A DNA stretch of 62,485 nt. It comes from Bacteroidota bacterium. GTDB lineage: Bacteria > Bacteroidota > Ignavibacteria > Ignavibacteriales > Ignavibacteriaceae. The translations under genes and the position numbers were made by a program. The notes beneath the pieces were generated by a model that was not told the origin of the DNA, ran no database searches, and saw only the letters and a list, made by a program, of their open reading frames with translations. Positions 15,480-25,762 of this stretch are shown here, one piece after another; position 1 is the stretch's first letter; every line of letters starts with the position of its first letter. The stretch covers positions 1 to 62,485 of the forward strand of contig JAKAJV010000073.1 of the NCBI GenBank assembly GCA_021813585.1. Reading direction: 5' to 3'.

Positions 15480-16265
15480 TTATAAAAGATTCTTTTTTAT
15501 GCCGGCTATCAGTTCTATTGTCTTATCATATTCTCCGTCGTCTTGCATAAGGGATTTAATAACAGCGCTGCCAACTATAACACCATCGCAGTAAGGTGCA
15601 AACGCTTTTGCGTCTTCACCAGATGAAATTCCGAATCCAACGAGGAGTTTATTCTTCTTTACAGTAGACCGTGCCCGTTTAATGAACTCTATACTTTCCG
15701 ATTTATCATTAAGTTTAGAGCCTGTGGTTCCGCTTACTGAAACGCAGTAGACGAATCCGCTGCTCATTTCATCGATAACATTTATTCTTTCATCTGGAGT
15801 TGTAGGCGTAACTAAAAGTATTTTGTCCAGATTCTCAAACGATCCGTCGAAGAAATTTTCATACTCCTCAATCGGGATATCCGGAATAATTACGCCGTTT
15901 ACTCCTGCGTTTCCGGCATGGTCGGAAAATTCTTTCAGTCCGTAAGACAGAACCGGATTAGCGTATCCCATCATAATTACCGGTTTGCCGGAATTACTTT
16001 TAATTTCCTTCGCGAACCGAAAAGCGTCATCTAGACTGATGCCGTTATCCAGTGCGGCCTGGGATGAATGCTGGATGACCGGTCCGTCTGCAAGGGGGTC
16101 GCTAAAAGGGAACCCTATTTCCAGCATGTCCGCTCCGGCATTTAATATTTGCAAAGCCAGGTTAACAAAATTTTCTTTGCCGGGAAACCCGGCAGTTAAA
16201 AAAACTGAAAGTGCTTTCCCGCCTTTTTTATTTATCTCATCTATATAATTTGAAATTGATAGCAA
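15480..16265 (-). CDS. trpA: Tryptophan synthase alpha subunit
   Basis: TrpA cleaves indole-3-glycerol phosphate to indole, which is channelled to TrpB. The 261 residues are full length, with the catalytic Glu in MLEIGFPFSDPLADGP and phosphate-site motifs VGFGISSGEDA and DGVIVGSAV. The start codon is TTG (16265), behind AAGAGAG. It is the last gene of the trp operon but is separated from trpB by the mntA-hepT pair, whose stop lies 23 bases before its start. Its expression must therefore pass through or arise from that module. Confidence 0.96.
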   Translation of the reverse strand: MLSISNYIDEINKKGGKALSVFLTAGFPGKENFVNLALQILNAGADMLEIGFPFSDPLADGPVIQHSSQAALDNGISLDDAFRFAKEIKSNSGKPVIMMGYANPVLSYGLKEFSDHAGNAGVNGVIIPDIPIEEYENFFDGSFENLDKILLVTPTTPDERINVIDEMSSGFVYCVSVSGTTGSKLNDKSESIEFIKRARSTVKKNKLLVGFGISSGEDAKAFAPYCDGVIVGSAVIKSLMQDDGEYDKTIELIAGIKKNLL

Positions 16266-16288
16266 GTGCTTAACTCTCTTGAGGAAAA

Positions 16289-16723
16289 TTAAATGTCATT
16301 AAGATGAAGAAACTCCGATATACTTTTTAAAAATATTTTGAAGTCTTTTAGATTGTTTTGCAGATATACATATACTTGTTCATCATTTACCTCCCAATAA
16401 ATATGAACCAGCCTATTTCTGAATTTTGCCATAGACTTTAGATTACTTAAAAATTTTTTATCAAAAACATTTTGCTCGAACAAAACTTGAAAGGTATCTC
16501 CGAAGTCCTTTGGCAATCTATAATTGTTCTGAGAAATAATATGATTACAAATATCAATGGCAGATTCAATAGCTATAATGAAATTGTATTTGGCACTGTC
16601 AATTTTATCATAATTTTTCAAAAACTTTTCTTTTTGTATTGAACTTAAATTTCGTAGTCTATCAGAAGCCTTTCGCATTTCTGAAATTAACTTAGCTATC
16701 TTATCGGCATTATATTGAGGCAT
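16289..16723 (-). CDS. hepT: HEPN-domain toxin (HepT-like RNase)
   Basis: The 144-residue all-helical protein has the HEPN ribonuclease motif R-x4-H-x-Y as RNRLVHIY (Arg102, His107, Tyr109). In characterised HepT-MntA pairs, HepT is an RNA-cleaving toxin and this tyrosine is modified by the antitoxin. The gene overlaps mntA by 14 bases, toxin second, which is the usual order. Being wedged inside the trp operon is odd. Its function here is inferred from family. Confidence 0.88.
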   Translation of the reverse strand: MPQYNADKIAKLISEMRKASDRLRNLSSIQKEKFLKNYDKIDSAKYNFIIAIESAIDICNHIISQNNYRLPKDFGDTFQVLFEQNVFDKKFLSNLKSMAKFRNRLVHIYWEVNDEQVYVYLQNNLKDFKIFLKSISEFLHLNDI

Positions 16724-17144
16724 TTTGTGTTTCCCTCAAATATTCATTTCTCAAATGAACATAATCGAAATATTTTTTTAATGTTAAGCTCTCAAAATCA
16801 GACCTCAATAATTTGTTCTTATCTAAGATTACAAAACCGGATTTTAAAACGTTATATTGAAAAGGTAAAGGAGCGCCATTGAGTATTCTTACATCAAAAG
16901 GGATATGAAATAAGGTTTCAAGTTTATCTTCCATTTTAAGCTCAAAAATTAAAAAATCTTCCTTCTTTCCTTCGGATATATATATTGCGATATCAATATC
17001 GTTGTAGAAATTTTTTTTTGAGAGTCCTTTTACAAGCATGGCAAAAGAGCCGAATGTATATGCAAATTCAATTTCGTCAATTGATTTGAAAACGTCCGTT
17101 ATATCATTTAATAAATATATCTTGTTTACGTCTTGAGATTCCAT
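16710..17144 (-). CDS. mntA: Minimal nucleotidyltransferase antitoxin (MntA-like)
   Basis: The 144-residue protein has the polymerase-beta nucleotidyltransferase core, with GS at 32-33, the metal-binding pair Asp49-Asp51 in NDIDIAIYI and a third acidic residue, Asp84, in FDVRIL. The spacing between GS and DxD is 15 residues, longer than the 10 usually quoted for MntA. Known relatives AMPylate the HepT tyrosine and neutralise it. It is separated from trpB by 128 bases, enough for its own promoter. Confidence 0.85.
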   Translation of the reverse strand: MESQDVNKIYLLNDITDVFKSIDEIEFAYTFGSFAMLVKGLSKKNFYNDIDIAIYISEGKKEDFLIFELKMEDKLETLFHIPFDVRILNGAPLPFQYNVLKSGFVILDKNKLLRSDFESLTLKKYFDYVHLRNEYLRETQNASI

Positions 17145-17272
17145 TTTATAATATTTATTTATGTGAAAAATATCTTTATAATTTCAATTATGCAAAGGAA
17201 TACCTAATTGTTAAATTAGATTACAGTTTAATTGTTCTAATCAATTTTGCAATTGAATGGTTTAGCAATTTT

Positions 17273-18478
17273 TCATTGTCCTAAATTCAAATTTTTCCTT
17301 ATGGTATCCAAATCCTTATCTCCGCGCCCGCTTACGTTTACTATTATTATATCATCACTTTTTGTTTTAGGCATAAGATAATTTAAGTAAGCCACAGCAT
17401 GGGCCGACTCAAGGGCAGGAATTATCCCTTCACTTTTAGATAGAAGCTCCGTTGCTTCAATCGCCTCGTCATCGGTAACGGAATAATATTCGGCTATTAC
17501 ATTATCCTTCAGGTAGCTGTGTTCGGGGCCTACACCGGGGTAATCCAGCCCCGCAGAAATTGAGTGGACTTCCGAGACCTGCCCATCATCATTCTGCAGC
17601 AGGTAAGTCTTCATTCCCTGAAAGATTCCTTCTCTTCCGAGAGTGAGAGTAGCGCAATGCTTGCCGGTATTTATTCCGTATCCTCCCGCTTCGATGCCTA
17701 TAAGCTTTGTATCCGAATTAATAAACGGATAAAAAATGCCGATCGAATTGCTTCCGCCTCCAACCGAGGCCAGTATATAACCGGGCAGCCTTCCTTCGGC
17801 ATTAAGAATCTGCGCTCTAGCCTCTTTGCCGATTACCGATTGAAAATCCCTAACCATCATGGGATAAGGATGAGGGCCGACCACCGAGCCTATAATGTAA
17901 TGAGTATTTTTTACATTGGTAACCCAATCGCGTATAGCTTCGTTGGTAGCATCTTTTAAAGTTCTGCTGCCTGATGATACCGGTATAACCTCCGCGCCGA
18001 GAAGCTTCATTCTAAAAACATTTAAGCTCTGTCTTTCAATGTCCACCTCGCCCATATAAACCTGGCACTTCAATCCGAATTTTGCACAGACAGTTGCAGT
18101 TGCTACTCCGTGCTGCCCTGCGCCCGTCTCCGCAATAATCCTTGTCTTACCCAGTTTCTTTGCCAAAAGGATTTGTCCCAGTGCGTTATTTATTTTATGC
18201 GCGCCGGTATGGCACAGGTCTTCGCGCTTCAAATAAATTTTTCCTTTGCCGAAATGCCTCGTCAGGCTTTCAGCATAAGTAAGCGGAGTAGGCCTGCCTG
18301 TATATTCCGAGTTAAGCTTTAATAATTCATCCTGGAAGCTTTTGTCGTTTTTTAAATGATTATAAATTTCTTCCAGTTCTTTAAGCGGAGTAATTAGTGT
18401 TTCCGGTACATACTTGCCGCCGTATTTACCAAAGCGGCCGTTAAGATCGGGTAAATTATATTCAACAGGCTTTTGCAT
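17273..18478 (-). CDS. trpB: Tryptophan synthase beta subunit
   Basis: TrpB is the PLP enzyme that joins indole and serine to make tryptophan. The 401 residues include the PLP-lysine motif [11 protein letters not shown], the phosphate-cup motif GGGSNSIG, and the substrate-site segment [13 protein letters not shown]. It starts inside the 3' end of aroF (17-base overlap), so translation is coupled. Downstream, the expected trpA is displaced by the mntA-hepT pair. Confidence 0.97.
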
Positions 18479-19496
18479 AAACGTTTAGCTTCCTTTCTAC
18501 TATCGGAGCGAGCTGTTCGATTTTGTTTAACATAGTTTTAAAATTTTTGGGAGTTAAAGACTGGAATCCGTCCGATAAGGCTTTCTCGGGATGGTTATGG
18601 ACTTCGATCATCAGTCCGTCTGCGCCGCATGCAATTGCAGCCAAGGCCATCGGCGGCACCTTATCCCATATTCCGATACCGTGAGACGGGTCCACAAGGA
18701 CGGGAAGATGAGAATGCTTCTTTATCATCGGCACAGCATTTAAATCCAGGGTATTTCTAGTCATCGTTTCAAAAGTGCGTATTCCTCTTTCGCAAAGGAT
18801 GACATTAAAGTTGCCTTGTGAAAGGATGTACTCCGCGCTCATCAGCAAGTCTTCCACAGTTGCGGCCATGCCTCTCTTCAGCAATACTGCATTTTGCAGC
18901 TGCCCAACTTCTTCCAGCAGAGAAAAGTTCTGCATGTTGCGGGCGCCAATCTGGATTATGTCCGCTACTCCCGCAATTAAAGGCAGAGACCTGGTGTCCT
19001 TGGCTTCCGTAACTATCATCATTCCCAATTCGTTTTTCACATCGGCTAAATATTCAAGTCCCTTTTCTTTTAATCCCTGGAACGAGTAAGGGCTGCTGCG
19101 CGGCTTATAAGCGCCTGCGCGCATCAATCTTATGCCCATCTCTTTCAGTTCGCCGGCAATATCAAAAAGCTGCTGCCTGCTTTCCACTGAGCATGGTCCG
19201 GCTATTACGGCAAGTTCCTTACCGCCTATGGTAACATCCTGAATCTTAACTACAGTATCGTCCTGCTTCATCTCCCTGCTTACAAGCTTGTACGGCTTTG
19301 TAACGCGGATTACTTCTTCAACCGAATCCATCGTTAAAAAATCTTCTTCGTTAAGAAGATTTGTCGGGCCGGTTATTCCTATGCCTAGCTTGGTAGCGCC
19401 GGGAATCTCGTGAGCCACGCAGGTCTTTTCCGTTATCTTTGTTTTTACTTTTTCAATATCCCGCAAGGGAGAATGCAGGCTCATTATTATTAACAT
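18462..19496 (-). CDS. aroF: 3-deoxy-7-phosphoheptulonate synthase (DAHP synthase)
   Basis: This enzyme condenses PEP and erythrose 4-phosphate and commits carbon to the shikimate pathway. The 344 residues contain an N-terminal ferredoxin-like regulatory region (about 1-85) and a TIM barrel with [25 protein letters not shown] and VDPSHGIG, marking the type I-beta family. Its place between trpF and trpB puts entry into aromatic synthesis under trp-operon control. The ATG at 19496 is preceded by AAAGAA; a second ATG four codons in is possible. Confidence 0.94.
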
Positions 19497-19529
19497 AAAA
19501 TTCTTTCTTTAATATTAAAAGTCATTTCT

Positions 19530-19612
19530 AAATTTCTTACTCTTACTCCTTACTCTTCCTTGTTTTATACATGATTAAGATTAAGTAAGATTAAGAGTAA
19601 GATTAAGGCTAA
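19530..19612. repeat. Short low-complexity inverted repeat between trpF and aroF
   Basis: CTTACTCTTA at 19536-19545 is the exact reverse complement of TAAGAGTAAG at 19592-19601. The right half is a run of TAAGAT/TTAAGA words. The 112-base gap between aroF and trpF holds nothing else. It could form an RNA hairpin inside the trp mRNA; I see no T-run to make it a terminator. Confidence 0.4.
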
Positions 19613-20226
19613 GAAGAAGAACAAAGGGTACTAACTTTCCTAAAGAAATCTGTTACTTTTTCGTTATCCTTTTTACCCGGCTCTTTTTCCAGCGATGAAG
19701 ACAGATCAATTGCAGCCGGACCGATGTCTTTGTAAATCGCTTCTATATTTTCGGAGGAGATACCACCGGCGAGAATTATTTTATGCTTAATTCCGCCAGG
19801 AATAATTTCCCAGTTAAATTTATTTCCTGTTCCTCCGTGCTGAACTTCCGAGAAAGAGTCCAACAGGTGGTACACATTTTTATAATCGTCGAGCAGCGAA
19901 AAATTGAAGCTGTCATTAATCTTAAAGCTTTTGATGACCGGGAAATCTATTTCATCCGCTGTCCGCGGCGTCTCGCTTCCGTGCAGCTGCACCAAATTCA
20001 ATTTTAAATATGAAGCGATTCTGTTTACAAACTCCGCCGGCTCATCAACAAACACTCCCACCTTAATTATAAACGGAGAGAGCTTTCTAATAATTAGCGA
20101 TGCAACTTCGGGAGGTACATACCGCTTGCTGCCCGGATAAAAAATAAATCCCAGCGCATCTGCACCTGCAGACTGACAAAGAAGCGCATCGCTTAGATTT
20201 GTTATGCCGCAAACTTTAACTTTCAT
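19609..20226 (-). CDS. trpF: Phosphoribosylanthranilate isomerase
   Basis: TrpF catalyses the Amadori rearrangement of phosphoribosylanthranilate in tryptophan synthesis. The sequence has KVKVCGITNLSDAL with the catalytic Cys, GFIFYPGSKRYV, and the phosphate-binding end AIDLSSSLEKEPGKKD. I start it at ATG 20226, which gives the canonical MKVKVCGI and an 11-base overlap with trpC. An upstream in-frame ATG at 20250 would add eight residues. The acidic residue before SSSLE is kept, so it should be active. Confidence 0.95.
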   Translation of the reverse strand: MKVKVCGITNLSDALLCQSAGADALGFIFYPGSKRYVPPEVASLIIRKLSPFIIKVGVFVDEPAEFVNRIASYLKLNLVQLHGSETPRTADEIDFPVIKSFKINDSFNFSLLDDYKNVYHLLDSFSEVQHGGTGNKFNWEIIPGGIKHKIILAGGISSENIEAIYKDIGPAAIDLSSSLEKEPGKKDNEKVTDFFRKVSTLCSSS

Positions 20227-21007
20227 TAGAACACCATTCCTTAAGTTCATTAAGCATGCCGGAAATATTCTGAGACCGCATTAAAAGCTCGCCTACGAGA
20301 ACGGCGTTTGTGCCGCAGCTCCGCAAATAATCTATGTCTTCCTTGCTGCTTATACCGCTTTCCGAGACCAGCATTACATCACCGGGCAGCTGCACTGATA
20401 TTTTTTTTGTTGTTGATAGGTCGACCGAAAAGTCTTCCAGGTTGCGGTTGTTAACGCCGATGATTTTATTTAACCCGAAGTTAATCTTGCCCAATTGTTC
20501 TTCGGAGTGAAGCTCTAGCAGCACTTCAAGTCCGTTTTCAAATGCAGCCTGTGTTAGATCGGTTATTTGATTTTCGGATAATGCTTCGCAGATTAACAGT
20601 ACCAAATCCGCACCGTTTGCTTTTGCTTCTAGCACCTGGTATTCATCGATTATAAAATCCTTGCGCAGCAGAGGCGCCTTCTTAATCTTTGCGATATCTC
20701 TTAAGAACGAAATATCTCCCATGAAAAATTTTTTATCCGTTAGTACCGAAACGGCGCTTACGGAATTATCAAAATAAATTCCGGCAATCTTTAGATGATC
20801 GAAGTCTTCTCTTATTATTCCTTTAGACGGGCTGGCTTTTTTAATTTCGGCAATTATGGAAATATTTTTTCCTTCTCTTGAATTATAGAGGCTCAGAGCT
20901 TTCTCATCGAAGAATTCGCTGTCGGCAAAGGAAGTTACCTTCATGCGCTTCCTCAGCTTGGATACTTCGTCTCTTTTTACTTCCAGTATTTGTTCGAGTA
21001 TGTTCAT
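20216..21007 (-). CDS. trpC: Indole-3-glycerol phosphate synthase
   Basis: TrpC closes the indole ring from carboxyphenylaminodeoxyribulose phosphate. The 263 residues show IIAEIKKASPSKG, LLRKDFIIDEYQV, IGVNNRNLEDFSVD and VSESGISSKEDI, covering the catalytic Lys and Glu positions. It overlaps trpF at its 3' end. A 112-base spacer with a small CTCCTTCG-type hairpin separates it from trpD. Confidence 0.97.
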   Translation of the reverse strand: MNILEQILEVKRDEVSKLRKRMKVTSFADSEFFDEKALSLYNSREGKNISIIAEIKKASPSKGIIREDFDHLKIAGIYFDNSVSAVSVLTDKKFFMGDISFLRDIAKIKKAPLLRKDFIIDEYQVLEAKANGADLVLLICEALSENQITDLTQAAFENGLEVLLELHSEEQLGKINFGLNKIIGVNNRNLEDFSVDLSTTKKISVQLPGDVMLVSESGISSKEDIDYLRSCGTNAVLVGELLMRSQNISGMLNELKEWCSNES

Positions 21008-21119
21008 TTTAAGTTTTAGAAAATTATTTTTATAAACCTGTTCTGCCGTCTTCCCGCCTGCATCTCCTCCGAAGGAGTCCTTCGAACTTACAAAGGAGAA
21101 GGATTAAGTATGAGGTTAA

Positions 21120-22160
21120 CTATGCAGCATAAGCCGCGCTGAATTTTTTTAGTTCATTTAGTTTTGCCAGGGCAGCTCCGCTTAAGATTGATTCCTCCGA
21201 TGCTCTTCTGCATTCCAGCAGATCATCCGAATAGCCGGCAGCGTATAATGCTAAAGCAGCGTTTGCCGCAACCGTATGGAAAGCGCCGTTTGGTTTTTTG
21301 TTCGATCCGTTCTTTTGCGAAAAAATATTAAGAATAATTTGAGCATTTACCTCGGGAGTATCGCCCGCAATTTCATCGTGAGAAATTGCCGGGTAGCCGA
21401 ATGTTTCGTGGGAAAGGTAGTAAGATTTTAATTCCTCGCCCCGGTTGTATTCGTGTACTTCGGTCTTATCGCCCAGGAAAATTTCATCGTACTTATCCAT
21501 CCCGCAAAGGAAGCAGACTTTATTAAAGTCAAGATACTTTGCCGCTTCGGCCATTGTTCTGGCTGCTTTCAAATTAAATGTCCCGATAATTTGTTTTTTT
21601 ACGCGTGCAGGATTCGTTAAAGGACCGAGCATATTAAAAACGGTTTTTATTCCCAGCTCTTTTCTTACCGGCGCGGCGTACTTCATTGCTGGATGGTAAA
21701 GCGGCGCAAACAAGAATGCTATTCCGACTTTGTTAAGCGCCTCTTCCGATTGCTCTTTGGTTAGATTGATGCTCACGCCCAGAGCCGATAGTACGTCTGC
21801 ACTGCCGCTTTTGCTAGAGATAGAGCGGTTGCCGTGCTTCGCAACTTTTACTCCGGATGCTGCAACAACAAAAGAAGTAGCGGTAGATATATTGAAGCTG
21901 CCCGAATTATCGCCGCCGGTACCGCAGACATCTATAACGTTTTCATCGCCGCAATTAATTTTGATGCTCTTCTCCTGCATCGCTTTTGCAAAGCCGGCTA
22001 CTTCTGCGGGTGACTCTCCCTTGGATTTTAACGCAATAAGCAGACCTGCAAGGTGAGAATTATTTACGCTGCCGTTCATAATCTCGCTCATTGCTTCAAA
22101 GGATTCTTCGAATGTTAAATCCTGGTTATCTATTACCTTTTGCAAGTATTCTATTATCAT
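21120..22160 (-). CDS. trpD: Anthranilate phosphoribosyltransferase
   Basis: TrpD transfers phosphoribose from PRPP to anthranilate. The protein carries the glycine-rich PRPP loop CGTGGDNSGSFNIST, the KHGNRSISSKSG segment and VFNMLGPLTNPA, all diagnostic. I place the start at ATG 22160 because it overlaps the trpG stop as ATGA, a standard translational coupling. An in-frame start four codons earlier is less likely. It is a separate gene here, not fused to trpG. Confidence 0.96.
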   Translation of the reverse strand: MIIEYLQKVIDNQDLTFEESFEAMSEIMNGSVNNSHLAGLLIALKSKGESPAEVAGFAKAMQEKSIKINCGDENVIDVCGTGGDNSGSFNISTATSFVVAASGVKVAKHGNRSISSKSGSADVLSALGVSINLTKEQSEEALNKVGIAFLFAPLYHPAMKYAAPVRKELGIKTVFNMLGPLTNPARVKKQIIGTFNLKAARTMAEAAKYLDFNKVCFLCGMDKYDEIFLGDKTEVHEYNRGEELKSYYLSHETFGYPAISHDEIAGDTPEVNAQIILNIFSQKNGSNKKPNGAFHTVAANAALALYAAGYSDDLLECRRASEESILSGAALAKLNELKKFSAAYAA

Positions 22161-22723
22161 GATGCTACCCAATTTTTAATTATGTTTTTGCCTTCTATGG
22201 TTAAAAAAGATTCGGGGTGAAATTGAATTCCTTCAACCGGATATTCTTTATGCCTTATGCCCATTATGCTGCCGTCGTCGGTCTCTGCGGAAATTTCAAT
22301 TTCAGCCGGAAGAGATTCCCTATCTACTATTAATGAATGATACCTTGTCGCCTTAAAATCCTGAACAATATTTTTGAAGATTGTTTTGTTATCATGCTTT
22401 ATTAAAGATGTCTTACCGTGCATTAGAACCGGCGCTTTGGTAACTTTTCCTCCGTATGAAATTCCCATTGCCTGATGACCAAGACAAACTCCGAGTATGG
22501 GAACACTCTTGCCGAATTTTCTAAAAGCAATTAAAGATGCTTTTGAATCTTCCGGCCTGCCGGGGCCTGGCGAGATTAAAATCTTATCCGGACAGATTTC
22601 ACTTATGTCTTCCTCGGAAACCTTGTCGTTCCTTTTTACAACCAGCTCGCATTTAAAGTTCCCCAACAACTGCACCAGGTTGTATGTAAAGGAATCGTAG
22701 TTATCAATTACCAGAATTTTCAT
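22157..22723 (-). CDS. trpG: Anthranilate synthase glutamine amidotransferase component
   Basis: TrpG supplies ammonia from glutamine to TrpE. The 188 residues have the class I amidotransferase triad: Cys in GVCLGHQAMG, His and Glu in IQFHPESFLT. NYDSFTYNLVQ marks the N-terminus and SPGPGRPEDS the oxyanion region. It overlaps trpE by 20 bases and trpD by 4, so all three are translationally coupled. Confidence 0.96.
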   Translation of the reverse strand: MKILVIDNYDSFTYNLVQLLGNFKCELVVKRNDKVSEEDISEICPDKILISPGPGRPEDSKASLIAFRKFGKSVPILGVCLGHQAMGISYGGKVTKAPVLMHGKTSLIKHDNKTIFKNIVQDFKATRYHSLIVDRESLPAEIEISAETDDGSIMGIRHKEYPVEGIQFHPESFLTIEGKNIIKNWVAS

Positions 22724-24179
22724 CTATTACCTCCGCATATTTAAGTGCATTAACCATAGCTGCCGATTTATTTTTAATTTCCTTTGCCTCAAGTTCCGGC
22801 CTGCTGTCTGCAACAATGCCGGCGCCTGCCTGCCAGTAAATAGTTTTTCCTTTTGCAAAGAGAGTTCTAATTGCTATGCACATATCCAGGTTTCCGCTGA
22901 AATCAAAATAGCCAACCGCGCCTGCGTATACGTTTCTTTCTTCTTTTTCATAATCATTTATTAATTGGATAGCGCGTATCTTCGGTGCGCCTGTTACTGT
23001 GCCGGCAGGGAAGCACGACATCAATGCGTCTATCGAATCCTTTCCGTCAGCTAATTCCCCGGTTACTTTCGAAACAATATGCATTACGTGAGAATATCTT
23101 TGAATCTTCATTTTTTCCGTTACCGCAACAGAACCGTAGCGGCAGACTCTTCCCAAATCGTTTCTTCCTAAGTCCACCAGCATTGTATGTTCGGCTATTT
23201 CCTTAGGATCATTTAATAAATCCCGTTCCATCGCGTTATCTTCTTCGGGATTTCTTCCCCTTCTTCTTGTCCCTGCAATCGGCAGCAGCTGCGCTTTGCG
23301 GTTTTTTACTTTTAACAAATCTTCGGGTGAAGTACCTATTATCGTAAAATCATTTTCGTACTCAAGGTAATACATATAAGGTGAAGGATTGATTATTCGA
23401 AGAGCGCGGTAAACGTTAAGCAAGTCTCCGTTGTAGCCGGAAGAAAATCTTTTTGAAAGTACGATTTGAAAAATGTCGCCTTCAACAATGTTATGTTTAG
23501 CGGCTTCCACCTGCCTGTAGAATTCTTCCGGGTCAAAATTTTCTTCTATAGTTCCGCTCAGAGAAAAGTCGGAGTTATATTCAACCGGTTTTTTAAGCTC
23601 CGCTTTTAGTGAAGAAAGAATTTCTTTTGCGGAATAATATGCTTTATCAAGATCGGTATCTTTATCAATCCGTACGTTGGCAATTAGAATTATCTGGTGC
23701 TTGTAATGATCGAAGGCGAGGACTGTATTGTATATTCCGAAAATGGAATCGGGATTGTTGAAGCTGGCGGTATTAAATTTTATAACGTTCTCTATTAGAG
23801 ATATATTCTCAAAGCCCAGGTAGCCTACTATGCCGCCGGTAAAGTCGGGCAGTTCATCAATCTTTGGCTGTCTGAATTTATTTATTTCTTGGCGGATGTA
23901 TTCGAAAATTATTTTTTCGGATTCGGCCTTCTTGCCGTTAGCTTCTTCAGACAGCCTGCTGCCTTTATTGTGAATAACCTTATAAGGATTCTTACCTATA
24001 AAAGAAAATCGAGCCATGCTGGCGGAGCCTTCAACCGATTCAAGCAGAAAGCCCGGCTTTCCTTTTTCCCTTATCTTTAAGTATGCAAGTACCGGAGTAA
24101 GCATGTCGGCTGTTATTTTTTCATAGACGGGAACAAGGTTAAATTCCCCGGCCAGTGTTTTAAAGTTATCGATATTCAT
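22704..24179 (-). CDS. trpE: Anthranilate synthase component I
   Basis: TrpE makes anthranilate from chorismate. The 491 residues include the N-terminal LLESVEG motif, the tryptophan feedback-binding element of TrpE, and the chorismate-utilising domain with PIAGTRRRGRNPEED, LVDLGRNDLGRV and FPAGTVTGAPK. It should thus be end-product inhibited in addition to the attenuation seen upstream. It is the first structural gene of the operon, 65 bases below the leader terminator. Confidence 0.97.
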   Translation of the reverse strand: MNIDNFKTLAGEFNLVPVYEKITADMLTPVLAYLKIREKGKPGFLLESVEGSASMARFSFIGKNPYKVIHNKGSRLSEEANGKKAESEKIIFEYIRQEINKFRQPKIDELPDFTGGIVGYLGFENISLIENVIKFNTASFNNPDSIFGIYNTVLAFDHYKHQIILIANVRIDKDTDLDKAYYSAKEILSSLKAELKKPVEYNSDFSLSGTIEENFDPEEFYRQVEAAKHNIVEGDIFQIVLSKRFSSGYNGDLLNVYRALRIINPSPYMYYLEYENDFTIIGTSPEDLLKVKNRKAQLLPIAGTRRRGRNPEEDNAMERDLLNDPKEIAEHTMLVDLGRNDLGRVCRYGSVAVTEKMKIQRYSHVMHIVSKVTGELADGKDSIDALMSCFPAGTVTGAPKIRAIQLINDYEKEERNVYAGAVGYFDFSGNLDMCIAIRTLFAKGKTIYWQAGAGIVADSRPELEAKEIKNKSAAMVNALKYAEVIDENSGN

Positions 24180-24243: not shown

Positions 24244-24279
24244 AAAAAAACCCTTCCCAGTTGTCTGAGAAGGGTTTTT
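24244..24279 (-). terminator. Attenuator terminator upstream of trpE
   Basis: On the minus strand AAAAACCCTTCTCAG (24279-24265) pairs over 15 positions, with one G-U, to CTGGGAAGGGTTTTT (24260-24246) around an ACAA loop, followed by a T7 run. It sits between the leader ORF stop and trpE in the direction of transcription, so it would end trp transcription prematurely. Its 5' arm (24264-24271) can alternatively pair with 24296-24303, immediately after the leader stop codon. Confidence 0.9.
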
Positions 24280-24304
24280 CACCTTAAAATTATATTTCTC
24301 AAAG

Positions 24305-24400
24305 TTACTGGGTCATATTATTTTGCATACTATACCACCACCAATTGTTTTGGCCGTAAAGGTTGTTAGCCAGGTAATATGTTCCAGTAATATCTTTCAT
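24305..24400 (-). CDS. trpL: trp operon leader peptide with three tandem Trp codons
   Basis: A 31-codon frame runs from ATG 24400 to TAA 24305. Codons 20-22 (24343-24335) are TGG TGG TGG, read as NNWWWYS. It lies between the trp promoter and the attenuator terminator. The stop codon is two bases from a segment (24303-24296) that can pair with the terminator's 5' arm. A ribosome finishing the peptide would mask that segment and permit termination. One stalled at the Trp codons would leave it free and favour readthrough. The sequence and positions are seen directly; the mechanism is inferred from the classic attenuation model. Confidence 0.88.
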   Translation of the reverse strand: MKDITGTYYLANNLYGQNNWWWYSMQNNMTQ

Positions 24401-24411
24401 AATTCGTGATG

Positions 24412-24441
24412 CAAATATAATATTCTTTTTCTTTAAGTCAA
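24412..24441 (-). promoter_or_regulatory. trp operon promoter, Bacteroidota type
   Basis: On the minus strand TTG (24441-24439) is followed after exactly 19 bases by TATATTTG (24419-24412), an exact match to the Bacteroidota TTG-N19-TAnnTTTG form. TTGACT-N16-TATATT also fits a general sigma-70 pattern. Transcription should begin about 24406, only some six bases before the leader ATG at 24400. Confidence 0.75.
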
Positions 24442-24459
24442 GTGGTTAATTAAAGAGAA

Positions 24460-24930
24460 CTAGGGATTGAATTGATAAATATATTTAAATCCCGAAAACC
24501 AACCGATAATTATTCCTGCAACTAATCCCAAACCTGTACTGATTGTAAGAAAGTTACCTGCGGCTTTGCTGTTACTTTGGCTGTTATTTTTATCTATAAC
24601 TCCGTATCCAATTAGTCCTGTTATTATTCCCAAAGAAGTCCCTAAAAAAATCCTATAACTGTACTAGGCAAATGATTTTTGTAGCTTATATCTTTTTGCA
24701 TCAGTAATTGGAATATTAGATACTCTTGAAAAAAGCGTATCGCCTTTTATTTTAGCACCAATCATTTCAATAGAATTTTTATTCATTAAAGTTACTGTTA
24801 ACTTTTTATCTCTCACAGAATTGTTAATATTGTCATAAAACTTTTTCTTTGATGGAAAATCTTTAATTGTAAATATTGTTGCACAGCCATAAAGCATTAT
24901 TGATAAAAAAATAATAATTATAGTTTTCAT
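24460..24930 (-). pseudogene. Interrupted small lipoprotein, paralogue of the next gene
   Basis: From ATG 24930 (behind GGTGAT) the frame encodes a lipoprotein signal with lipobox LYGC and 88 residues, then meets TAG at 24664. Beyond the stop the same frame stays open for 67 codons and reads LGTSLGIITGLIGYG ... YIYQFNP. This matches the C-terminus of the neighbouring gene (LGTPFGLITGTVIGF ... YTYQFNP). The whole frame is 156 sense codons. It is either a recent nonsense mutation, a sequencing error, or a stop that is sometimes read through. Function is unknown. Confidence 0.75.
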
Positions 24931-25123
24931 ATAATCACCTTTAACTTTAATAGTTGGAATAAGAAATATATTGTTGTTGACCTGTATACCATGAATCATA
25001 AATGTACCAACTGCCCTGATTAGGCCAAACACAGTTGGTACATGGATTTGAATCCAGACATTTATATTCTATTACTATTAGCTTTTACAACCTAAGCAGC
25101 CAGGCTTCTGCCCGGCTGCATGG

Positions 25124-25762
25124 TTAGGGATTAAATTGATAAGTATAATTATATCCTACCAGCCAGCCTATTGCACCGCCGGTTAAAATTGTTAGAATCG
25201 GGTAAGCAATACTCGATTCATTAGTACCTCCATGTGTACTAGAACCATTTATATATCCTAATTCTAAAAAACCTATAACTGTACCTGTTATTAATCCGAA
25301 TGGCGTACCCAACCAATGCTTATTATAACTTACCGATTTTATTTTGCCTATTGGCAGACTTTCTACTTTATTAGCATAAATTAAAGTTTTAATATACGAC
25401 CCGGTAAGCATGCCTGCCTTTTTTGCTTGCAGCACTTTACCATCATTTAAAACTATTCTTGCTGCAATATTGGATGTAGCAGTATCAAAATATTGGATAT
25501 CTTTTATTTCATCTGATTTTATCTCTTCTTCTTTCAAAATATTTAACGTAAAAAAAAGTGAATCATTTGAAATTCCTCCAGTTTTAACTGCTGTAAATGA
25601 ACTATCATTTTTTAAGGTAATTTTTATTTTTTTATTTGCTGTAGATTTATTAAAGTCATAATAAAAATCCACTCTGGACGAATAATTTTTTATTGTATAG
25701 ATTGGAGAGCAGCTTTCTAAAATAAAAATGAATAAAAATAAAGTTAAATAAATAATTTTCAT
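25124..25762 (-). CDS. Putative lipoprotein with C-terminal glycine-rich membrane segments
   Basis: The 212 residues start with a hydrophobic signal and the lipobox LESC (Cys near 18). The middle holds two similar beta-rich stretches (KIKITLKNDSSFTAVK... and IAARIVLNDGKVLQAKK...), suggesting an internal duplication. The C-terminus has two Gly-rich hydrophobic helices (LGTPFGLITGTVIGFLELGY and LTILTGGAIGWLVGYNY). It is clearly related to the interrupted gene just downstream. I do not recognise a named family and propose no function. Confidence 0.7.
   Translation of the reverse strand: MKIIYLTLFLFIFILESCSPIYTIKNYSSRVDFYYDFNKSTANKKIKITLKNDSSFTAVKTGGISNDSLFFTLNILKEEEIKSDEIKDIQYFDTATSNIAARIVLNDGKVLQAKKAGMLTGSYIKTLIYANKVESLPIGKIKSVSYNKHWLGTPFGLITGTVIGFLELGYINGSSTHGGTNESSIAYPILTILTGGAIGWLVGYNYTYQFNP

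Follow-up and report, generated by a model that had tools for sequence, protein, structure and literature searches.

The window, that is, the whole 62,485-nt stretch of DNA analyzed here, carries a tryptophan biosynthesis gene cluster on the minus strand, headed by a short leader region. The features are given below in the direction of transcription, with the basis for each assignment.

24437–24441, minus strand: TTGAC, a -33/-35-like promoter element, 17 nt before the -7 box.
24412–24419, minus strand: TATATTTG, an exact TAnnTTTG and putative -7 box, ending 11 nt before the leader ATG.
24305–24400, minus strand: leader peptide ORF of 31 codons, MKDITGTYYLANNLYGQNNWWWYSMQNNMTQ* (ORF reading; leader and terminator parsed in relatives).
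24375–24388, minus strand: segment 1, ACUGGAACAUAUUA, codons 5–9, a predicted anti-antiterminator pairing with 24320–24307 (folding).
24335–24343, minus strand: three tandem Trp codons, codons 20–22, the proposed sensor (sequence reading).
24307–24312, minus strand: segment 2a, CCCAGU, the 5' strand of helix A, shared with the 1:2 helix and ending at the first base of the stop codon (folding, pairing).
24296–24303, minus strand: segment 2b, UUUGAGAA, the 5' strand of helix B (duplex prediction; weakly kept beyond close relatives).
24282–24304, minus strand: A-U rich 8-bp hairpin, CUUUGAGA / UUUUAAGG, a competitor for segment 2b in the full-length fold (folding).
24264–24271, minus strand: UUCUCAGA, terminator 5' arm plus first loop base, the target of segment 2b in helix B (duplex prediction).
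24256–24261, minus strand: ACUGGG, last loop base plus the top of the terminator 3' arm, the target of segment 2a in helix A (column pairing).
24245–24280, minus strand: intrinsic terminator hairpin of 16 pairs, with a T7 run at 24250–24244 and T-rich sequence to 24238 (folding).
22704–24179, minus strand: trpE, the first gene past the terminator (Pfam Anth_synt_I_N and Chorismate_bind).
15480–22723, minus strand: GATase (trpG), trpD, trpC, trpF, DAHP synthase, a PALP enzyme (trpB), a nucleotidyltransferase/HepT pair, and trpA (Pfam domains and gene order).

The genes from trpE to trpA are probably cotranscribed. The DAHP synthase gene (18462–19496, minus strand) lies between trpF and trpB; because it sits inside the trp cluster, control at the leader may also govern the entry step of the shikimate pathway. 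The nucleotidyltransferase (Polbeta) and HepT-like pair (16289–17144, minus strand) lies between trpB and trpA, and such pairs are known as toxin–antitoxin modules. Upstream of the leader, the gene at 24459–25032 (minus strand) looks broken: by eye, the ORF 24664–25032 ends early, and the sequence downstream of it, judged by eye and unaligned, resembles the C-terminus of the neighboring paralog 25124–25762. Either decay or an assembly error would account for this.

The initial annotation had described a 31-codon leader (ORF 24400–24305) with WWW at codons 20–22, a terminator, and trpE 65 bases beyond it, and all four were located as claimed. The T7 run that it gave to the terminator is present, although the stem, described as 15 bp, comprises 16 pairs. 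Predicted folding energies are -58.9 kcal/mol for the whole leader (z -5.1) and -25.1 kcal/mol for the hairpin region (z -5.0), and in neither case was any of 200 shuffles as good. Across 96 loci, 1094 of the 1127 cells in the terminator stem columns are paired. A predicted terminator between the leader and the first structural gene, as an attenuator requires, is thus conserved.

To place the locus among its relatives, trpE upstream regions were compared at four levels: its own family (48 loci), the next group (49), other orders of the class (40), and the rest of the phylum (40). The next group (f2/3) consists of 46 loci from two further families of the order plus the contigs L113, L136, and L147, to which no family is assigned; the record titles of the first two read Calditrichia and Chlorobiota, respectively. 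Of the 49 own-family genomes that have a TrpE match, all but G073, whose match lacks the N-terminus, were used; in f2 and f3, 46 of 49 matching genomes were used (G083, G099, and G131 omitted). The 40 class loci and 40 phylum loci beyond the order were hand-picked for spread over families, the latter among the matches listed, with families f32, f35, f37, f44, f47, and f48 outside the sample. L050, which is the L012 locus again, and L109, whose upstream sequence is identical to that of L052, were excluded. The named TrpE relatives are Ignavibacteriales, Ignavibacteriaceae, Melioribacteraceae, and 'Bacteroidetes bacterium', mostly metagenome-assembled but including Stygiobacter electus; nine Brevibacillus records (L137–L145) form the distant remainder and served as negative controls only.

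A W-rich leader followed by a terminator precedes trpE at 47/48 own-family loci, 49/49 loci of the next group, 14/40 loci of other orders, and 29/40 loci of the rest of the phylum. The Trp codons are therefore conserved in relatives, and the absence of such conservation, which the initial annotation had named as one finding that would refute it, did not materialize. Among the 110 leaders of the first three groups, the longest run of W is four in 25, three in 57, two in 23, and one in 5. No leader was parsed at 26 of the 40 class loci and 11 of the 40 phylum loci; at many leaderless class loci a coding gene extends up to trpE, as judged by eye without a count. The parser passed over L029, which has two nontandem Trp codons, and L152, which has a WYWYW leader, and both are counted as misses though they look leader-like by eye. 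None of three sampled loci of family f36, which has many genomes among the matches listed, has a leader. L231 and L232, of family f53, have W-containing short ORFs before trpE and no parsed terminator, which may reflect a different type of control, an ORF that arose by chance, or a failure of the parser.

The leader signal is specific to the amino acid of the operon. When short ORFs with an ATG start were sought in 300-nt windows (for hisG, oriented by the match strands, the window spans approximately 370 to 70 nt upstream of where the domain match begins), those containing WW occurred before trpE in 92 of 97 regions and before hisG in none of 25, whereas those containing HHH occurred in 0/97 and 21/25, respectively. 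The reverse strand of the trpE regions gave WW in 0/97 and HHH in 8/97, and neither kind was found in the nine Brevibacillus trpE regions. The predicted leader, if translated, is thus rich in codons for the product of the operon, as expected of an attenuator. A pattern search, TGGTGG-N40..70-CCCTTCT-N8..24-GAAGGG, gave a single occurrence in the own genome (4.54 Mb, 142 contigs), at the attenuator site. Being strict, this pattern overlooks variant leaders, for example the one in G012; it matches in 15 of 21 genomes, and the reversed-pattern control matched once, in G001. One match of the pattern itself, on G146:C56, a contig different from that carrying trpE in that genome, looks like chance.

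The putative promoter lies close to the leader. Exact copies of TAnnTTTG, which we take to be the Bacteroidota -7 box, occur in 28/47 own-family leaders, 22/49 of the next group, and 0/14 of other orders, compared with none of 110 shuffled 30-mers. An exact TTGAC accompanies 29 of the 39 own-family loci whose -7 box has at most one mismatch, a count made without a shuffled control. Because the -7 box ends 11 nt before the leader ATG, the 5' UTR is predicted to be only a few nucleotides long, with transcription starting just before the ATG. In all 110 leaders, the 15 nt preceding the ATG are free of GGAG, AGGA, and GAGG, and no exact TAnnTTTG was seen by eye between the terminator and trpE.

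Duplex prediction pairs segment 2, which lies at or close to the leader stop codon, with the top portion of the terminator. Its pairing with its own terminator is better than the mean of its pairings with those of other loci in 100 of 108 distinct cases among the 110 leaders (mean -16.8 versus -12.1 kcal/mol). Against shuffled sequences, p<=0.05 is reached in 41/46, 37/48, and 9/14 (own family, next group, and other orders) and is not reached in 21 of the 108. In tests that ignore relatedness and on rows that were not deduplicated, helix A, the pairing of CCCAGU with ACUGGG at this locus, has 652 of 768 cells paired over 96 aligned loci, exceeding the best of 500 shuffles (619), and it does so in each group separately: 298/376 in the own family (best shuffle 287) and 354/392 in the next group (best 339). 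Compensatory exchanges are found in this helix (C-G 33 and U-A 33; A-U 59 and G-C 20). In the own family, the two columns of the helix nearest the loop are poorly paired (27/47 and 16/47). The covariation of helix A and the own-versus-cross preference (100/108) together argue for an alternative antiterminator that is mutually exclusive with the terminator.

The antiterminator that the initial annotation had named is a different one, namely helix B, an 8-position pairing of 24303–24296 with 24271–24264 that includes one G-U. This pairing exists here and in close relatives; however, it is poorly kept, and the better-kept CCCAGU × ACUGGG had been missed. Over all 96 rows helix B has 342 of 556 cells paired, slightly above the best shuffle (337), but within a single group it never exceeds the best of 500 shuffles (188/264 in the own family, best 190; 154/292 outside it, best 159), and it was rejected as the sole antiterminator. 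Nor does the antiterminator segment begin two bases beyond the stop codon, as had been proposed; the strand, 24312–24296, straddles it.

Upstream of the Trp codons, 12 of the 14 positions of segment 1, a pairing that the initial annotation had also missed, are paired with 24320–24307 in the predicted fold. In a test region starting 12 nt before the ORF, self pairing of segment 1 is better than the cross-species mean in 93 of 109 distinct pairs, and p<=0.05 against shuffles is reached in 32/47, 21/48, and 6/14 (median z -2.8, -1.1, and -1.3 in the family, the next group, and other orders). The 1:2 pairing is thus supported, best in the own family.

The preference between the two structures was examined by folding the exposed RNA with 4, 6, or 8 nt of the terminator 3' arm emerged or in full, and with the ribosome placed on the first Trp codon, placed on the stop codon, or left out. 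These are equilibrium prefix folds rather than kinetics, with assumed footprint edges of 15 nt for the stalled ribosome and 12 nt for the one at the stop. With 6 nt emerged, 46/47, 49/49, and 12/14 leaders (own family, next group, other orders) adopt the antiterminator under a stalled ribosome; the terminator is adopted by 43/47, 37/49, and 12/14 with a ribosome at the stop and by 33/47, 21/49, and 7/14 with none. In the next group, the antiterminator is favored in 28/49 of these ribosome-free folds, contrary to the role proposed for segment 1 there. With 4 nt emerged, only 32/47, 18/49, and 8/14 leaders fold into the terminator when the ribosome is at the stop, and with 8 nt, a stalled ribosome leaves the antiterminator favored in 29/47, 43/49, and 7/14. 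In full-length folds, the terminator prevails in all cases with a ribosome at the stop or with none, and also in 47/47, 47/49, and 13/14 of the stalled ones. The folding in both states that had been suggested as a check therefore yields the expected states with 6 nt of the 3' arm out, less clearly with 4 or 8 nt, and no longer at full length. Since the terminator wins there even with a stalled ribosome, the switch must, if these predictions hold, be kinetic and decided during transcription. Geometry and prefix folding, most clearly at 6 nt, are what indicate that a stall would free segment 2 and a ribosome at the stop would mask it.

Taken together, these results identify the site as a ribosome-mediated transcription attenuator of the trp operon, with a probability of roughly 90%: its parts, conservation, and covariation were observed directly, while its state preferences were computed. 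The initial annotation had arrived at the same reading, and it remains the best one, with the Trp codons conserved and helix A covarying. From this, we infer ribosome–polymerase coupling, stalling, and a response to tryptophan. Transcription would start a few nucleotides before the leader ATG, with a ribosome trailing RNA polymerase. When Trp-tRNA is ample, the ribosome would reach the stop codon and, because segment 2 spans the stop, cover that segment, allowing the terminator to form and to stop transcription short of trpE. Under a shortage of Trp-tRNA, the ribosome would stall at WWW, the first base of which lies 31 nt before segment 2 here. The median distance from the W run to segment 2 among relatives is 24 nt, in a search that by design starts 9 nt after the run in the main groups and 6 nt after it at phylum loci; from the leader stop to the terminator the median is 26 nt. 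Segment 2 would then be free, CCCAGU capturing the loop and 3' arm and UUUGAGAA the 5' arm, and the polymerase would read on. Without a ribosome, segment 1 would pair with segment 2a and should favor termination, at least in the own family.

An alternative is that the leader peptide itself is the sensor, its nascent chain arresting the ribosome in the tunnel on tryptophan, as in TnaC-like systems, with WWW just part of the motif. Residues beyond WWW are indeed conserved in close relatives, GTYY near the leader start and NMTQ at its end, and WWWP occurs in 10 of 11 leaders of family f42. However, the conserved residues of the family coincide with the RNA pairing segments ACUGGAACAUAUUA × UAAUAUGACCCAGU, and the nucleotides CATAT are kept before the W run in 66 of 110 leaders (36/47, 22/49, and 8/14; 15.1 expected from codon shuffling) while the residues encoded there vary (TYY, TYN, TYS, SYR, SYY). 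We read GTYY and NMTQ as probable marks of RNA constraint rather than peptide function. Arrest induced by tryptophan would presumably also have the wrong sign for a biosynthetic operon, and the his leaders follow an equal codon-run logic. A peptide sensor is therefore improbable.

Still less probable is control by a protein, a tRNA, or a ligand (TRAP-like, T-box, or riboswitch) with the short ORF incidental. The strongly structured element (z -5.1) would suit such control, but the Trp specificity resides in the codons, and no Rfam family reaches its gathering score within the window. The best match below threshold is PyrR (26.1 bits against a cut-off of 54), Phe_leader scores 17.6 and 16.7 bits against 55, and both T-box and Trp_leader, which we take to be RF00513, are absent from the 20 Rfam matches at E up to 10. 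Many of these subthreshold matches cover the terminator; we judged them to be chance, and Rfam membership was rejected, none being at gathering score. Least probable of all is that the hairpin simply terminates the upstream gene and that a promoter for trpE follows, with the short ORF there by chance. Although the upstream gene is co-directional, WW short ORFs precede trpE and not hisG (92/97 versus 0/25), the stop-codon region covaries with the terminator, and the TAnnTTTG precedes the leader, with no exact one seen by eye between terminator and trpE.

Within ribosome-mediated attenuation, the wiring at this locus differs from that of the textbook case. The stronger contiguous helix of segment 2 is with the loop and 3' arm of the terminator in 97 of the 110 leaders, with 9 ties and 4 favoring the 5' arm, and its lead exceeds 1 kcal/mol in 42/47, 44/49, and 11/14 (own family, next group, other orders). 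At this locus the values are -12.95 for the loop and 3' arm versus -10.37 for the 5' arm, with which the weaker helix B also forms. The same test on E. coli trpL (L254) returned the 5' arm, as expected, and the 29 parsed phylum loci elsewhere (of L214–L253) favor the 5' arm in 22, the loop and 3' arm in 5, and neither in 2; all three loci of family f40 favor the loop and 3' arm. A main antiterminator of the E. coli type (II:III, using the 5' arm of the terminator) was thus not found here. The design is therefore a variant of known attenuation, in which the first element resembles the terminator 5' arm and competes for the 3' arm, and the antiterminator strand probably enters the terminator through its loop. 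In family f42 (L214–L224), where WWWP occurs at 10 of 11 loci and WWWR at L221, segment 2 (GCAGUGG or similar) pairs with the terminator 5' arm in an E. coli-like topology at all 11.

E. coli trpL (PMC1183508) likewise combines a short leader peptide with tandem Trp codons, a terminator before trpE, an exclusive antiterminator, early 1:2 pairing, and a stop codon whose position lets a ribosome completing the peptide act on region 2; its region I holds the Trp codons, whereas segment 1 here lies well before them. Two further differences from E. coli trpL are that its antiterminator uses the terminator 5' arm, while here it is mainly the loop and 3' arm, and that the 5' UTR here is apparently very short and lacks an SD-like sequence. 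Actinobacterial trp attenuators (PMC1262725) also have a leader with double or triple UGG, a terminator, an antiterminator, and conserved complementary triples, but their triple is gGCC-rGCy-GGCC, unlike the first element here, which is similar to the 5' arm and has the 3' arm as its main partner. Flavobacterium psychrophilum, of the same phylum, has candidates for leader-peptide attenuation before amino-acid operons, although no pairing model is offered in the section of PMC9723704 on attenuation. Leaders with W runs from other lineages in the phylum resemble the present one in their W-rich leader, terminator, and trpE and differ in topology, 22 of 29 favoring the 5' arm. Since W-run leaders precede trpE elsewhere in the phylum too, the suggestion that this is an independent compact version is not established.

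Ribosome-mediated attenuation is textbook knowledge. A 2010 survey (PMC2965389) states that, to its authors' knowledge, leader-peptide systems had previously been shown only in Proteobacteria and Actinobacteria, ermC aside, and adds a his case in Firmicutes. Later work describes his leaders in further Firmicutes (PMC9413887), and PMC8632094 describes a Cys leader motif upstream of cysS in Rhodobacterales. Within the phylum there is some precedent, since the Flavobacterium psychrophilum transcriptome, in the main text of PMC9723704, yields 'strong clues' of leader-peptide attenuation before amino-acid operons and structured 5' elements before hisG and pheA; the words 'trp' and 'tryptophan' do not occur in that main text. 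PMC7366714 mentions B. thetaiotaomicron sORFs reminiscent of leader peptides, with no 'trp' in its main text, and PMC4833913 counts Bacteroidetes leader genes and cites earlier large-scale attenuation searches. A full-text search, with most subscription papers outside its scope, listed no paper that, judged by its title, the opening of its abstract, or passages from it, reports a trp leader in Ignavibacteria or other Bacteroidota. The principle is thus known; the version here is kept across relatives and has an RNA wiring that departs from the classical one.

A broader proposal, to which we give an even chance, is that trp (and his) leader-peptide attenuation is widespread in Bacteroidota and possibly ancestral, and that in Ignavibacteria it has been rewired, with an antiterminator strand that contains the leader stop invading the terminator through the loop and 3' arm, so that the decision falls at a later point of transcription than in E. 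coli. Classical attenuation needs a ribosome close behind RNA polymerase, an arrangement not shared by all bacteria; if the rewiring in Ignavibacteria is real, close coupling of ribosome and polymerase is implied there. With an attenuator conserved in Ignavibacteria and other Bacteroidota, such coupling becomes testable with a single reporter, and the loop and 3'-arm design probes how late in transcription an antiterminator can still win. Annotators also gain a signature for trp (W-run) and his (H-run) leaders where Rfam is silent, as it is in the window.

Two further observations concern variation in leader regions. At eight loci (L015, L016, L020, L059, L069, L076, L080, and L081), the distance from the leader stop to trpE is 157 to 279 nt, compared with approximately 75 nt in many others; the leader and terminator are intact and are followed by extra sequence that by eye is often repeat-like. 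The 25 hisG loci, 21 of which have an upstream HHH short ORF, belong to the own family, and the own genome itself carries a his leader, MYNKAHTIHHHHEVFNYLAGLY, with a terminator-like hairpin before hisG (L208, G000:C83 near 132742–133212, reverse strand 1210–1279).
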